From contig NZ_CP045529.1 in assembly GCF_009429125.1 (NCBI RefSeq), positions 558,001 to 622,000 of the forward strand: DNA of 64,000 nt. Reading direction: 5' to 3'. The translations under genes and the position numbers were made by a program. The notes beneath the pieces are model-generated. The model was not told the origin of the DNA. It saw nothing but the letters and a program-made list of their open reading frames with translations, and did not search any database. Shown piece after piece: positions 43,465 through 50,144 of the stretch (its first letter is position 1; the number at the start of each line of letters is the position of its first letter). The DNA comes from Luteimicrobium xylanilyticum (GTDB lineage: Bacteria > Actinomycetota > Actinomycetes > Actinomycetales > Cellulomonadaceae).

Positions 43465-43468
43465 CGCC

Positions 43469-43524
43469 GAAGTAGTACGGCCGCCCGCATACTTCGCGAG
43501 GTATTCGGGCGGCCGTACTACTTC
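43469..43524. terminator. Perfect 19-bp inverted repeat between convergent genes
   Basis: Arms 43469-43487 and 43506-43524 are exact reverse complements; the 18-nt centre is itself a near-palindrome (ATACTTCGCGAGGTAT), and the perfect palindrome TACTTCGCGAAGTA follows at 43519-43532. It lies in the 96-bp gap between the flavoenzyme fusion (+) and GtrA (-), so a bidirectional terminator is the simplest reading. There is no T-run. Confidence 0.7.
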
Positions 43525-43560
43525 GCGAAGTACTCCGGTATCCCGCCTACGTCGCGGGGG

Positions 43561-44440: not shown

Positions 44441-46675
44441 TCACGACGACGAGCTCGTCGCGCCGCTGCTCAGGTCGTAGATCGTGACACCGTCGACGGT
44501 CTGCGACTGGAACGTGTCCTCGACCCACGAGGAGATCTCGGACGCCGCGTCGGAGCCACCCATCGAGCCGCCGAATCCCGATCCCGAGCTGATGTAGTAG
44601 TGGATCTCGCCCTTGGCGACGTACTCCTTGAACTGGGCGAGCGTCGGCGACGGGTCGGACCCGTTGAAGCCACCGATCGGCATCACCGAGTCGCCCGACG
44701 CGAGCTGGTAGCTCGCGGCGTTCTGCGAGCCGGTCGTGGCGGCGGCCCAGCGGTACTTGTCGGCGTCGGTCTGCAGGATCGTCGTGAGCTCGCTGCTCAC
44801 CGAGGTCCCGTTCAGCAGGCTGCTGCCGCCGCCTCCGCCGCCGCGCCCGCCGAAGCTCGCGCCGTCGCCCTGGGTCTGTCCGCCCTGCTGGGTCTGTCCG
44901 CCCTGCTGGGTCTGTCCGCCCTGCTGGGACTGGCCACCCTGGCTCGGCGGCTGCTGCTGGGACTGGCCACCGCCCTGCTGGCTCTGGCCACCGCCCCGCT
45001 GGGACTGCCCCCCGGGACCGCCGCCGAACCCGCCCTGACCGCCACCACCACCGGGACGTCCGCCACCGCCGCCGGGACCGAAGCCCGTCGACTGGACGTC
45101 CGGGCCCGCCGTCGGGAGGGAGCCGGTGTGACCTTCGGTGAGCGTCTGCACCGAGTACGCCGCGGGCCCGCCGAGCCCGACGACGACGGCCAGCGTGGCC
45201 GCCCCGGCCAGCACGACCCGGCCCGCGTGGTCGCGCGTCCCGATGAGCCTCCCGGCGAGGAGCGCGACCGCCGCGACGAACCCGCCGAACAGCACCACGA
45301 CCCGCAGCCACGGCAGGAACGACGACGACCGGTCGAGCAGGGTGTACGACCACGCCGCCGTCGCGAGCGTGGCCGCGGCGAGCACGGCCACCGCCCACCA
45401 CGAGTCCCGACGACGCCACAGCTGCGAGCCGCCGGCACCGACGAGGGCGGCGAGCGCGGGCGCGAGCGCCACCGTGTAGTACGCGTGGAAGATGCCGGAC
45501 ATGTAGCTGAACACGAGCCACGTCACGACGAGCCAGCCGCCCCACGCGAGGTACGACGCGCGGCGCAGGTCCGTGCGTCGGGCGCGAGCGGTGAGCGCGA
45601 GCCCGGCGACGAGGAAGATAGCGGCGGCGGGCGCGAGCCAGGCGATCTGGCCGCCGAACTCGGAGCCGAACAGCCGCCCGAGGCCCGTCGAGCCCCACAT
45701 GCCGCCCCCGGTGCCGCCCCCGCCGCCGCCGACGGACCCGGTCTCGTTCCCGGTGATCCGCCCGAAGCCGTTGTACCCGAACGTGAGCTCGAGGAACGAG
45801 TTGTTCTGCGACCCGCCGATGTAGGGGCGAGACCCTGCCGGCACGACGACCGTGAGCAGCACCCACCAGCCTGCGGTGACCACGAGGGCGCCGACGGCGA
45901 GCAGCGAGTCCCGGATGCGCCGGCCGAGCGACACGGGCGCCGCCCACAGGTAGGCGACACCGAGCCCGGGCAGCACGAGGAAGGCTTGGAGCTGCTTGGT
46001 CAGGAACCCGAGCCCGATCGCCGCGCCCGCGAGGAGCATCCACCGGGTCCGGCCGTCCTCGACGGCGCGCAGCACGCAGTACGTGGCCGCGGCCATGAGC
46101 GCGACGAGGAGCGCGTCCGGGTTGTCGAAGCGGAACATGAGCGTCGCGACCGGGGTGAGCGCGAGCGCCGCGCCGGCGAGGAACCCGGCGCCCGTCCCGA
46201 AGGACCGGCGCACCGCGGCGAACACGAGCCACACGCTCGCGACGCCGAGGAGCACCTCGGGCACGAGCACCGACCACGTGTTGAGCCCGAAGATCCGCAC
46301 CGAGAGCTCGGGCAGCCACAGGGAGGCGGGCGGCTTGTCGACGGTGATCGACCCCGCGGCGTCCGACGAGCCCCACAGGAACGCCGACCAGCTCTTCGAG
46401 CCGGCCTGGATGGCGGCCGTGTAGAACGAGTTGGACCAGCCGTTCGCGCCGAGGTTGACGAGCCAGAACACGGCGGTCGCCACCAGCATCCCGAGCAGCC
46501 CGAAGCGGGCGGGGCGGCTCAGGCGCCCGGGGCGGGCGCCGTCGTCGGGCGGGGTGGGCAGGCCCGACGCCGGTCCCTCGCCCGCCTGCACCGTCCCGGC
46601 CGTGCCGGGGGTCGTGGGGGAGACGGTGGCGGGTGCCGCTGGGGGCGACACGTGGGTGGTGTAGGGGACGGTCAT
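44441..46675 (-). CDS. GT39/ArnT-type membrane glycosyltransferase with Gly/Gln-rich insert
   Basis: 744 aa. A polyprenyl-phosphate-sugar-dependent glycosyltransferase with about 11-12 membrane helices. The GT39 signature loop contains the acidic substrate residues DKPPASLWLPELSVRIFG and MFRFDNPDALLVALMAA; GLGFLTKQLQAFLVLPGL is also typical. After the membrane part a low-complexity stretch (GGQSQQ/GGQTQQ repeats) joins an extracytoplasmic C-terminal domain of about 115 residues (YQLASGDSVMPIGGF ... IYDLSSGATSSSS), as in B. subtilis YkcB-like proteins. ATG 46675 overlaps the GT2-GtrA stop (ATGA). Together they would make and transfer an envelope sugar. Confidence 0.9.
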   Translation of the reverse strand: MTVPYTTHVSPPAAPATVSPTTPGTAGTVQAGEGPASGLPTPPDDGARPGRLSRPARFGLLGMLVATAVFWLVNLGANGWSNSFYTAAIQAGSKSWSAFLWGSSDAAGSITVDKPPASLWLPELSVRIFGLNTWSVLVPEVLLGVASVWLVFAAVRRSFGTGAGFLAGAALALTPVATLMFRFDNPDALLVALMAAATYCVLRAVEDGRTRWMLLAGAAIGLGFLTKQLQAFLVLPGLGVAYLWAAPVSLGRRIRDSLLAVGALVVTAGWWVLLTVVVPAGSRPYIGGSQNNSFLELTFGYNGFGRITGNETGSVGGGGGGTGGGMWGSTGLGRLFGSEFGGQIAWLAPAAAIFLVAGLALTARARRTDLRRASYLAWGGWLVVTWLVFSYMSGIFHAYYTVALAPALAALVGAGGSQLWRRRDSWWAVAVLAAATLATAAWSYTLLDRSSSFLPWLRVVVLFGGFVAAVALLAGRLIGTRDHAGRVVLAGAATLAVVVGLGGPAAYSVQTLTEGHTGSLPTAGPDVQSTGFGPGGGGGRPGGGGGQGGFGGGPGGQSQRGGGQSQQGGGQSQQQPPSQGGQSQQGGQTQQGGQTQQGGQTQGDGASFGGRGGGGGGSSLLNGTSVSSELTTILQTDADKYRWAAATTGSQNAASYQLASGDSVMPIGGFNGSDPSPTLAQFKEYVAKGEIHYYISSGSGFGGSMGGSDAASEISSWVEDTFQSQTVDGVTIYDLSSGATSSSS
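44880..44933. repeat. 18-bp tandem repeat inside the GT39 gene
   Basis: Two perfect and one diverged copy of CCGCCCTGCTGGGTCTGT (+ strand), with partial units on both sides. They encode the GGQTQQ repeats of the linker between membrane part and outer domain. Being a multiple of three, copy-number change would alter linker length without breaking the frame. Confidence 0.85.
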
Positions 46676-47985
46676 CGGGACACCTCCGAGGTGCGGGGCG
46701 CGAAGACCCAGGAGCGGAAGAGGACGAAGCGCAGGAGCGTCGCGCCGAGGTTGGCGGCGCACAGCACCACGAGCTGGGCGGCGCCGGACGCGCCGGGCGC
46801 CGCGGCGTGCAGGACCGCGAGCGAGCCCGCCGTGAGGGCCCAGCCGAGGGCGAACACGACGAGCCCCTGGCCGTGGTGGCGTGCGGCGCCGGTGCTGCCG
46901 CGGATCCCGAACGTGTGCCGCCGGTTGAGGCCGGTGTTGAGGACCGCGGTCACCGCGAGGGCGAGGAAGTTGGCCCACTGCGAGCCGAGGGGCTGGCGCA
47001 GGAGCAGGAAGAGCAGGGCGTACGCGACCGTGCAGACCACGCCGACGACGCCGAAGCTCAAGACCTGGTTGAGGAGCGTCTGGCGGCGGCTCAGCGCAGG
47101 CTGGTCGTCGGAGGTGCGCCGCGGGAGGGCGGCGCGGACCTCGTCGAGCGGGATGCGGCCCGCGTTGAGGTCGCGCACGAGACGCCAGATGCCGCGCAGG
47201 TCGGCTGTGGCGGTCGCGACGATGTCGACGCGGCTGTCGGGGTCGTCGACCCAGTCGACGGGCACCTCGTGGATCCGGAGGCCCGCATGCTCGGCGAGGA
47301 CCAGCAGCTCGGTGTCGAAGAACCAGCCGGTGTCCTCGACGAGCGGGAGGAGCTGGCGGGCGGCGTCGGCGCGGATCGCCTTGAAGCCGCACTGCGCGTC
47401 GGAGAACCGGGCGTGCAGCGTGCCGCGCAGCAGGAGGTTGTAGCCGCGCGAGATCAGTTCGCGCTTGGGACCTCGCACGACGCGCGAGCTCGCGCTGAGC
47501 CGGGACCCGATCGCGACCTCCGAGTGCCCCGACAGGAGCGGGGCGACGAGCGGGAGCAGCGCCGCGAGGTCGGTCGACAGGTCCACGTCCATGTAGGCGA
47601 GCACCGCGGCGTCGGACGAACCCCAGGCCGCGTGCAGGGCGCGGCCGCGGCCCTTGGCGTCGAGGTGCACGACCCGCAGGCCGGGCAGCTCGTCCGCGAG
47701 GCGGAGCGCGACGGCGAGCGTGCCGTCGGTGGACGCGTTGTCGGCGATCGTGAGGCGCGCCGGGAAGGGGAGACCGCCCGTCACGTAGGCGTACGCCCGG
47801 CGGACGGACGCCTCGAGCGTGCGGGCCTCGTTGTAGACGGGGATGACGAGGTCGAGCGCGAGACCCGTGGCGGGCCCCTCGTGCGCGGCGCCCGAGGGGA
47901 GGCGCCGTGCGGTGGGTCCCGGCGGCGCGGGCGCCACGACCTCGGGCGGCGCGGCCGCCTCGTGGGGGAGCTGTGTCGTCGTCAT
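46672..47985 (-). CDS. GT2 glycosyltransferase fused to GtrA domain
   Basis: 437 aa. Residues 40-280 form a DPM1-like family 2 glycosyltransferase: LDLVIPVYNEARTLEASV, LTIADNASTDGT, AAVLAYMDVDLSTDLAAL (metal-binding DxD), and SDAQCGFKAIRADAARQL. A linker (DLRGIWRLVRDLNAGRIPL) leads to the GtrA domain with four TM helices (about 300-430, NRRHTFGIRG, RFVLFRSWVFAPR). It should load a sugar onto polyprenyl phosphate and help flip it, supplying the GT39 enzyme translated from the overlapping next gene. ATG 47985 is preferred; in-frame sequence further upstream runs through the 21-bp repeats and is unlikely to be coding. Confidence 0.92.
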   Translation of the reverse strand: MTTTQLPHEAAAPPEVVAPAPPGPTARRLPSGAAHEGPATGLALDLVIPVYNEARTLEASVRRAYAYVTGGLPFPARLTIADNASTDGTLAVALRLADELPGLRVVHLDAKGRGRALHAAWGSSDAAVLAYMDVDLSTDLAALLPLVAPLLSGHSEVAIGSRLSASSRVVRGPKRELISRGYNLLLRGTLHARFSDAQCGFKAIRADAARQLLPLVEDTGWFFDTELLVLAEHAGLRIHEVPVDWVDDPDSRVDIVATATADLRGIWRLVRDLNAGRIPLDEVRAALPRRTSDDQPALSRRQTLLNQVLSFGVVGVVCTVAYALLFLLLRQPLGSQWANFLALAVTAVLNTGLNRRHTFGIRGSTGAARHHGQGLVVFALGWALTAGSLAVLHAAAPGASGAAQLVVLCAANLGATLLRFVLFRSWVFAPRTSEVSR

Positions 47986-48058
47986 GCCCACGACGATCCG
48001 CCTCGGACCTCGGCTGCTCCGGGGCGGACCCTGTGAACCCCCGGTGAACGCCGACGGT

Positions 48059-48163
48059 GACGCCGGGTTCGCCGAGTGCGACGCCGGGTTCGCCGAGTGC
48101 GACGCCGGGTTCGCCGAGTGCGACGCGGGGTTCGCCGAGTGCGACGCGGGGTTCGCCGAGTGC
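48059..48163. repeat. Five tandem 21-bp units
   Basis: Units start at 48059, 48080, 48101, 48122 and 48143. Consensus GACGCCGGGTTCGCCGAGTGC; the last two units carry GCGGGG in place of GCCGGG. A diverged sixth unit starts at 48164. They lie in the gap 47986-48437 upstream of the GT2-GtrA gene. No spacers, so not a CRISPR array. Every frame is open through the array only because 21 is a multiple of 3. Confidence 0.9.
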
Positions 48164-48176
48164 GACGGTGGGGTTC

Positions 48177-48274
48177 GCGGGTGGGTGCGGGGAGGTGGTT
48201 CGGGCTGTCGTGCTCCGGCCCGGGAGGCCGTGCGCACTCCTTGACGCCTTCACCACCTCACCGCACCCACCCGC
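48177..48274. repeat. 23-bp inverted repeat (one mismatch) next to the 21-bp array
   Basis: Arms 48177-48199 (begins GCGGGTGGGTGCGG) and 48252-48274 pair at 22 of 23 positions around a 52-nt centre. Directly follows the tandem array. Confidence 0.8.
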
Positions 48275-48311
48275 TCGACCGTCGCTCGCCGACACGTCGG
48301 CGTCGTTCGGC

Positions 48312-48359
48312 CGGTCACGATCGGCATCGAAGAGGGCTCGAGGCCGCCGATCGTGACCG
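48312..48359. repeat. Perfect 14-bp inverted repeat
   Basis: CGGTCACGATCGGC at 48312-48325 and its exact reverse complement at 48346-48359, with a 20-nt loop. Third nested structure in the same gap. Confidence 0.8.
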
Positions 48360-48375
48360 CTCACTCGAGACTCGC

Positions 48376-48411
48376 CGTCGCACTCGGCGGCCCCGGCGTC
48401 GCACTCGGCGG
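48376..48411. repeat. Two inverted copies of the 21-bp unit core
   Basis: CGTCGCACTCGGCGG occurs at 48376-48390 and 48397-48411, 21 bp apart. It is the reverse complement of the core of the units at 48059-48163. The two arrays thus face each other across about 210 bp and lie just past the 3' end of the kinase gene. Confidence 0.75.
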
Positions 48412-48437
48412 GCGCGGCGTCTGAGCCCCCCGCTGCG

Positions 48438-50144
48438 TCAGCGTGACGAGCGGGGGAGGCGGACCGTGAAGGTCGTGCCCGTCGGCGCCGGACCGGCGCC
48501 CGCCGTCGTGCTCTCGACCTCGATCGTGCCGTGGTGCGCGAGCACGATCGCGTGCGCGATCGCGAGCCCCAGTCCCGTCGACCCACCGACGCGGTTGCGT
48601 GACGTGTCGCCCCGGCTGAACCGCTGGAACAGGTCGGGGACGAGGTCCGCGGGGATCCCGGGGCCGTCGTCCTGCACGGTCACGACGACGTCGTCGCCGT
48701 CCGCGCGGACGCCGACCCGCACCCGCGTGCCGGGCGGGGTGTGGACGCGGGTGTTCCCGACGAGGTTGGTCAGCACCTGGCGGAGCCGGGCCTCGTCCCC
48801 GGAGACGACGAGGTCGTCGCGGGCCTCGTCGACGGTCTCGAGCCCCTCGAGCGTGTCGAGGTCCAGGGTGGTGAGGTCGACGGACTCGGCCATGGTGCCG
48901 TCGTCCGGGTCGCCGCCGAGGTCGAGCTCGTAGCGGTGGTCCGGGGAGGCGGCGTGCGCGTCGGTCACGGCGTCGACGGCGAGCGCGGTGAGGTCCACGG
49001 GCGCGCTGTCGAGGGGACGACCGGCGTCGAGGCGCGCGAGCAGGAGGAGGTCGTCGACGAGGACGCCCATGCGCCTCGCCTCGGACTCGATCCGGTCGAG
49101 GGACCGCGCGGTGCTGTCCGGCAGGGACTCGGGGGAGCGGCGGACGAGCTCGGCGTACCCCCGGATGGAGGCGAGGGGCGTCCGCAGCTCGTGGCTCGCG
49201 TCGGCGACGAACTGACGGACCTGCGTCTCGGAGCGGTGGCGCGCGGCGAGCGACGTACCGACGTTGTCGAGCATGCGGTTGAGCGCCGCGCCGACCTTGC
49301 CCACCTCGGTGCGCTCGTCCGTGTCGCGTGGGTCGACGCCGTGCAGCGCCCCGACCTCGCCCTCGGCGAGCGGGAGCTGGGAGACGTGCTCGGCGACGTC
49401 GGCGACGCGGTCGAGCGGGGCGAGCGACCGTCGCACCAGGAGCGAGCCCACGACCCCGGCGATCACGAGGCCGCCGAGCGCGAGCGCGACCTCGAGCAGC
49501 ACGAACCGCCGGATGGTGGCGTCCATGGTGGCGGTCGGGAGCGCGGTGACGGACGGCTGGCCGGTGCGGGTGGTCGTCGCGACGGCCCGGTACGAGCCGA
49601 GGTCGCCCACCGTGACCTGGTGGACCTTCCCGTCGTGCGGGACCGCGACCAGGTCGGCCACCTCGTCGTCGCTCAGCGCGACGAAGCAGCCCGACTCGTC
49701 GAAGAACCCCGCGTCGACGACCGTCCCGCCGGAGTAGAAGACGACGATCTGGCCCGCGCCCTGGCCGGGCGGCGGAGTCGACCCGCCCGGCAGGTTCGAG
49801 GTGTCGTCGCAGCGGGCCGCCATCTCCTGTGCGCGCTCGGTCCTCCGGCTGCTGGACCCGCTGTCGGCGGTGCTCGTCGAGTCCGAGCCGGTCGCGCCGT
49901 CGTCCGTCGAGCCGGACCCCGCGCCTGGCGCCGTGCCGCCCCCGCGGCCCGGGAAGTTCGAGGACCGCTCGGAGGCCGCGCGGAGCTGGTCGTCGAGCTG
50001 CCCGCTGAGCGACCCCCGCAGCGCGAGCGCGGAGACCACGGCGAGCACCGCGAGCAGGGCCACGAGGACGCCCGTCACCACCAGGACGAGCTGACGGCGC
50101 AGGGTCAGCGGCCCGCGCGCGTCGGCGGGTCGGGGCAGCCTCAC
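48438..50144 (-). CDS. Two-component sensor histidine kinase (TrcS-like)
   Basis: 568 aa. TM1 at about 18-42 (LVLVVTGVLVALLAVLAVVS). The extracytoplasmic sensor of about 160 residues has a Ser/Gly/Asp-rich segment and two Cys. TM2 is near 215-240 (LLEVALALGGLVIAGVVGSL). HAMP, then the H box ADASHELRTPLASIRGYAEL with the phospho-His, N box QVLTNLVGNTRVHTPP, G1 VQDDGPGIPADLV, F box FQRFSRGD, and G2 STGLGLAIAHAI. GTG 50144 overlaps the response-regulator stop (GTGA), so the two are cotranscribed. Confidence 0.93.
   Translation of the reverse strand: MRLPRPADARGPLTLRRQLVLVVTGVLVALLAVLAVVSALALRGSLSGQLDDQLRAASERSSNFPGRGGGTAPGAGSGSTDDGATGSDSTSTADSGSSSRRTERAQEMAARCDDTSNLPGGSTPPPGQGAGQIVVFYSGGTVVDAGFFDESGCFVALSDDEVADLVAVPHDGKVHQVTVGDLGSYRAVATTTRTGQPSVTALPTATMDATIRRFVLLEVALALGGLVIAGVVGSLLVRRSLAPLDRVADVAEHVSQLPLAEGEVGALHGVDPRDTDERTEVGKVGAALNRMLDNVGTSLAARHRSETQVRQFVADASHELRTPLASIRGYAELVRRSPESLPDSTARSLDRIESEARRMGVLVDDLLLLARLDAGRPLDSAPVDLTALAVDAVTDAHAASPDHRYELDLGGDPDDGTMAESVDLTTLDLDTLEGLETVDEARDDLVVSGDEARLRQVLTNLVGNTRVHTPPGTRVRVGVRADGDDVVVTVQDDGPGIPADLVPDLFQRFSRGDTSRNRVGGSTGLGLAIAHAIVLAHHGTIEVESTTAGAGPAPTGTTFTVRLPRSSR

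Follow-up and report, generated by a model that had tools for sequence, protein, structure and literature searches.

Among the described systems closest to the locus presented here are the REPINs and their RAYT genes, in which one genome carries several types of palindromic repeat, each next to its own enzyme gene, with solitary copies dispersed (PMC3116915). The repeats analyzed here are likewise short palindromic sequences arranged as inverted pairs in intergenic DNA, with a separate enzyme gene for each type. Unlike in REPIN/RAYT systems, the enzyme is an AbiEi-DUF559 nuclease of the Vsr type rather than a Y1/HUH transposase, the arms often consist of up to 5-6 units arrayed in tandem, and every gene has a complete repeat on either side. 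No Y1_Tnp domain (PF01797) was detected in Luteimicrobium xylanilyticum or 18 relatives, using a search that was positive in 5 of 14 control genomes. A second comparison is with the CGTC-tagged REPs, for which head-to-tail dimers are negligible, groups are rare and actinobacteria are not listed (Di Nocera 2013, PMC3733652). As in those repeats, the units described here end in CGTC and pair head to head without a Y1 transposase, but they lack the 8-9 bp stem, the 4-5 base loop and the CCA tail, a single unit forming a stem of at most 4-5 bp. On the enzyme side, DUF559 proteins are known to be Vsr-like (PMC12907096). The closest solved relative by sequence was 3r3p, a mobile intron protein with a Vsr-like (EDxHD) homing-endonuclease domain (E 6e-4), and the gene here also sits inside its presumed target repeat. 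In contrast to such homing endonucleases, these genes reside in neither an intron nor an intein but between intergenic hairpins, and the proteins carry an AbiEi-like N-terminal part. To our knowledge, the BOX, RUP and SPRITE elements of pneumococcus, which are also modular, hairpin-forming intergenic repeats, have no sequence relation to the repeats described here. They are judged parasitic in a source whose abstract reports no dedicated repeat-bracketed nuclease gene for them (PMC3049150).

The window, that is, the whole 64,000-nucleotide stretch that was analyzed, corresponds to bases 558001-622000 of the 4.21-Mb L. xylanilyticum chromosome (G000). Using a simple codon-usage gene finder, we observed a true intergenic gap at 47986-48437, between two genes on the minus strand, with the following features:

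46672..47985, minus strand: GT2-GtrA protein, 437 aa; its start codon at 47985 bounds the gap
48049..48062, plus strand: outermost unit, of the ancestral type I (CGCCGACGGTGACG); a sixth unit, of another subtype than the five that follow
48070..48167, plus strand: left arm, five type II units CGCCGAGTGCGACG at 48070, 48091, 48112, 48133 and 48154, with a 21-bp period and pointing inward
48177..48275, plus strand: hairpin element B, 99 bp, with 23-bp arms
48312..48359, strand not assigned: hairpin element C, GGTCACGATCGGCA..GCCGATCGTGACC
48376..48410, minus strand: right arm, a pair of type II units in inverted orientation at 48376 and 48397, 21 bp apart and facing the left arm
48438..50144, minus strand: sensor histidine kinase (HAMP, HisKA, HATPase); its 3' end (stop at 48438) bounds the gap

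This layout bears out an earlier note on this DNA, which had described five direct 21-bp units facing two inverted copies of equal period, with two further inverted repeats between them, all placed between the kinase and GT2-GtrA genes. The inverted copies lie at 48376-48411; of the two inverted repeats, one has 23-bp arms that differ by a single mismatch (48177-48199/48252-48274), and the other, of 14 bp, is perfect (48312-48325/48346-48359). In the left array (48059-48167), each of the five units consists of TTCGCCGAGTGCGACG followed by 5 variable bases, and Tandem Repeats Finder ranked it as the strongest tandem array of the window (score 204, 98% matches). The core pattern had 7 near-exact matches in the gap, compared to 0.92 expected across the whole 64 kb. 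The predicted fold of the stretch is also far more stable than those of dinucleotide shuffles (z -11.8 for RNA, z -13.6 for DNA). The conserved inner stem of hairpin B reads GGGC..GTCGTGC..GGCCC..GGGGCC..GCAC..GAC..GCCC.

Genome censuses, combining pattern searches with 1.2 Mb of stretches that were read, revealed that all parts of the gap are members of dispersed repeat families and that none is a locus-specific terminator or operator. The type II core TTCGCCGAGTGCGACG had 48 matches in L. xylanilyticum against 1 for the reversed control, with no exact match in the two nearest relatives, Luteimicrobium album NBRC 106348 (G001) and L. subarcticum DSM 22413 (G002). Type II units (GAGTGYGAC) occupy approximately 19 places in L. 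xylanilyticum, all intergenic, and a generic unit pattern gave 175 matches against 3 in the control. The type I subtype TCGCCGACGGTGACG is older and genus-wide, with 85, 114 and 51 matches against 0-4 in controls. For hairpin B, L. album has about 25 copies, L. xylanilyticum about 5 and L. subarcticum a single diverged one; scanning for the B core turned up one unrelated record outside those genomes, and no cognate nuclease was found for this hairpin. Hairpin C recurs in L. xylanilyticum and L. album, with at least 14 unit matches in the L. xylanilyticum DNA that was read. Overall, the repeats occur as REPIN-style doublets, inverted, intergenic and dispersed. Of note, a 1.2-Mb stretch of the L. 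xylanilyticum chromosome (approximately 1.31-2.53 Mb) is devoid of type II sites, which is borderline unusual by a rough estimate.

All two-armed sites examined in L. xylanilyticum, L. subarcticum and a second genus, g34, were inward-facing, with plus-strand units on the left and minus-strand units on the right. Between the facing arms we found nothing, a hairpin, element B or even a gene. Genus g34 (G054) carries the same unit type, inward-facing around a constant core of approximately 37 bp. The arrays are located in tandem, convergent and divergent gaps, always intergenic; an early idea that they mark gene ends was dropped after the gene contexts of the array sites had been tabulated. In 400 kb of L. 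xylanilyticum DNA, the period histogram of the intergenic part presented a single peak at 21 bp (17 versus 0.6 in shuffles) plus its double at 42, while all multiples of three appeared in coding DNA. Some arrays step by 22 or 23 bp. Exact tandem pairs outside this family were absent from 396 genomes of the order, and the only viral sequence that matched this tandem pattern (L134) was set aside as a coding repeat, judged from its sequence. The idea that the 21-bp period reflects two helical turns may matter, as unrelated unit families are likewise spaced by 20-22 or 31-32 bp, but this phasing rests on few families because the spacings inside one array are not independent.

We located and read the L. 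album orthologues of nine L. xylanilyticum sites. Across these, the flanks were 89-95% identical and the contents were different. The flanks of the window's own gap are approximately 91% identical in L. album, yet the contents are completely different, and they differ again in L. subarcticum. Of the L. xylanilyticum set, L. album keeps at this gap only the outermost unit, of type I (CGCCGAGGGTGACG), and otherwise carries a different hairpin (GCGAGTCAGCGCG...). In L. subarcticum, an unrelated unit, GTCRRCCACGACC, makes up the inward-facing 21-bp arrays of the kinase-GT2 gap; it had 43 matches in that genome (control 0) and forms inward-facing arrays there whose periods are 20-21 or 31-32 bp. 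In more distant relatives, the gap is short or is occupied by a glyoxalase-like reading frame, named from its translation read by eye. Elsewhere, a single unit in L. album corresponds to arrays in L. xylanilyticum at site L040, and to arrays plus a nuclease gene at site L035 (L138 in L. album), the one clean empty/filled case; at sites L037 and L041, similarity between the two species ends at the array. This is an old site with younger contents, and the neighboring genes are independent of these contents. The recombination hot spot proposed in the earlier note comes close to this picture, given flanks so similar around contents so different.

A nuclease gene is associated with these repeats. 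At site L035, a gene coding for 302 aa (2891545-2892450; L035:1146-2051) sits between type II arrays; its product matched MTES_1575 (Vsr-type REase) weakly, and as a Pfam match this type II-linked nuclease falls short of the curated threshold (E 0.011). The most similar protein in g34 (50% identical) is encoded between two of that genome's own facing arrays, and the gene between two arrays of L. subarcticum's own (G002:C2:577660-578484) is another member of the nuclease superfamily. Two copies of the window's hairpin C bracket a nuclease paralogue at 3041639-3042397. In the nuclease proteins, an AbiEi-like part is joined to a Vsr-like nuclease carrying a conserved E..., D..., ExDG motif. AbiEi models matched all eight aligned nucleases, MTES_1575 six and DUF559 five. 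A single-protein search returned no relative.

To assess this association independently of the repeats, 14 homologues from Luteimicrobium and g34 were picked by protein similarity alone. Facing arrays were present on both sides of 3 of them versus none of 1,060 control genes (Fisher p=1.8e-6). A repeat common to both 260-bp flanks placed 9 of the 14 above all 1,051 controls (scores of 78-150, control maximum 53); convincing flanking repeats were absent from the other 5. The bracketing sequence differs from gene to gene, and each bracketing repeat tested recurs elsewhere in its own genome, with 0-2 matches for reversed controls except for the L236 unit, whose control was high. Each of these repeat types adjoins its own enzyme gene, as in REPIN/RAYT systems but with another enzyme family, and copies are found downstream of the nuclease genes as well. 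One pair of facing arrays (L043:1082-1950, genome 4016181-4017049) brackets a gene for an F420-dependent NADP oxidoreductase; therefore, not every bracketed gene is a nuclease. The window also contains, in a convergent gap (43466-43527), a hairpin AGTAGTACGGCCGCCCGCATACTTCGCGAGGTATTCGGGCGGCCGTACTACTTCGCG of another nuclease-linked family, whose parent copies, identical over 53 bp, bracket the nuclease at genome position 2081989 (L240).

Using tblastn, nuclease homologues were also located on Tsukamurella, Arthrobacter and Nonomuraea replicons. Seven of nine, all from Tsukamurella and Arthrobacter, had gene-specific repeats on both flanks (scores of 49-111, compared to a maximum of 40 for 100 annotated controls), while the remaining two had no convincing ones. 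Two of these repeats are dispersed at 12 and 14 places in their genomes. Distinct, nuclease-specific and genome-dispersed repeats were observed in four or more genera. Nucleases that resemble each other tend to have similar repeats, as protein and repeat similarity correlated over 18 nuclease-repeat pairs (Mantel r 0.26, p 0.005). In Tsukamurella, hairpin-bracketed DUF559 genes (L253:18037-18936 and L254:18037-18942) were found amid housekeeping genes, in the purC/purB neighborhood and beside gatA, which suggests insertion into conserved neighborhoods.

Since type II and C repeats each bracket nucleases, the gap holds solitary copies of two nuclease-linked families. Our preferred reading, which we consider probable, is that it is an intergenic landing site for solitary, non-autonomous copies of at least two such families (the type II arrays and hairpin C) together with hairpin B, and that the parent elements would spread in a homing-like or REPIN-like manner. 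A parent element consists of an AbiEi-DUF559 type gene bracketed on both sides by its own palindromic repeat. This repeat takes one of two forms, a simple hairpin or two short tandem arrays that face inward, with periods of 19-22 bp (in some, 31-32 bp). Its protein, with a predicted DNA-binding part and a Vsr-like PD-(D/E)XK nuclease, may recognize its own repeat unit and cut or nick the target, after which repair could copy the element into that target. Tandem arms would then grow through local duplication, and lineages would replace the unit sequence as nuclease and repeat co-evolve. Such mobilization would require no host function, although effects on neighboring transcription are possible. 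Homing-like copying is preferred over transposition because neither a target-site duplication nor a fixed element end was found at the sites read. The proposal of a REPIN-like selfish element stems from the pattern itself, as an enzyme gene between repeats, with solitary repeats elsewhere and one type per enzyme, is what ties REPINs to RAYTs.

Other explanations were weighed against this reading. AbiEi autoregulates through inverted repeats in its promoter, and the repeats could likewise be protein-binding operators, with AbiEi-like domains bound cooperatively on one DNA face every two turns, flanking copies autoregulating the nuclease and dispersed copies serving as a regulon or decoys. The AbiEi matches of all eight aligned nucleases and the spacings of 20-22 and 31-32 bp in unrelated unit families fit this idea. 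We find it rather unlikely, as copies also lie downstream of nuclease genes and in convergent gaps, where operators would be of little use, and as contents turn over between close species while the neighboring genes stay. A narrower version, in which the earlier note saw a binding array for the adjacent response regulator, is not supported, since the same units recur in about 19 unrelated locations and both neighboring genes are present in L. album although the array is missing there. It is also unlikely that some other transposase spread these repeats as ordinary intergenic tandem repeats or REP-like junk, with the nucleases as cargo tolerant of insertion at such places. Some REP-like families are known to have no dedicated enzyme (the CGTC REPs, PMC3733652), some nucleases have no flanking repeats, and the L043 arrays bracket an oxidoreductase gene. 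Against it stand the absence of Y1 transposases from the relatives searched and the pairing of each nuclease with a repeat of its own, dispersed within that genome, across four or more genera and with correlated protein and repeat similarity.

Two further readings concern the neighboring genes. Despite the very stable predicted fold, it is very unlikely that the gap acts as a terminator or RNA hairpin for the transcription unit of the kinase or of GT2. The terminator complex suggested in the earlier note was not supported, since the gap has no G+C stem followed by a T run, the same elements occur in divergent as well as tandem and convergent gaps, and they are absent from the same gap in L. 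album. An Rfam search of the gap gave no match near the gathering score, the best being chance microRNA models. A coding repeat, extending GT2-GtrA by heptapeptides, would agree with 21 bp being seven codons and with a minus-strand frame that stays open (HSANPAS repeats), but can be almost entirely discounted. Unlike the array, the GT2-GtrA start codon and the N-terminus that follows it also occur in L. album and L. subarcticum, some arrays have steps of 22 or 23 bp, and the intergenic 21-bp peak lacks the other multiples of three typical of coding DNA.

Returning to nuclease-driven spread, we propose tentatively, as a possibility that we hold with less assurance than the reading of the gap itself, that cassettes of a palindrome, a Vsr-type AbiEi/DUF559 nuclease gene and a second palindrome, accompanied by solitary hairpins or facing arrays, are widespread in actinobacteria, each nuclease recognizing its own repeat and driving its homing-like spread, with repeats replaced by lineage through co-evolution. 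They may represent a class of mobile element undescribed in the literature searched: work on DUF559 with Vsr, AbiEi, palindromic or homing endonuclease yielded nothing on repeats. Annotations of actinobacterial genomes repeatedly list lone AbiEi/DUF559 genes as unknown or as antitoxins. If bracketing by gene-specific repeats is consistent, it would assign these genes a role, along with a DNA target that can be tested. It would further indicate that REP-like elements can run on an enzyme unrelated to tyrosine transposases, and bear on the open question of how transposase-less REP families spread. Facing arrays with helical-turn spacing are, moreover, a natural substrate series for binding tests.

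Additional repeats were noted in Luteimicrobium gaps. At sites L022, L028 and L031 of L. album, copies of hairpin B are flanked by more short arrays built on CGTGGTCGGGTTCGCGG, often 21 bp apart. Another facing family, GAGTCAGCGCG, with a 19-bp period and plus-strand pairs followed by minus-strand pairs, is present at L024, L018, L140 and other Luteimicrobium gaps and is common in L. album.
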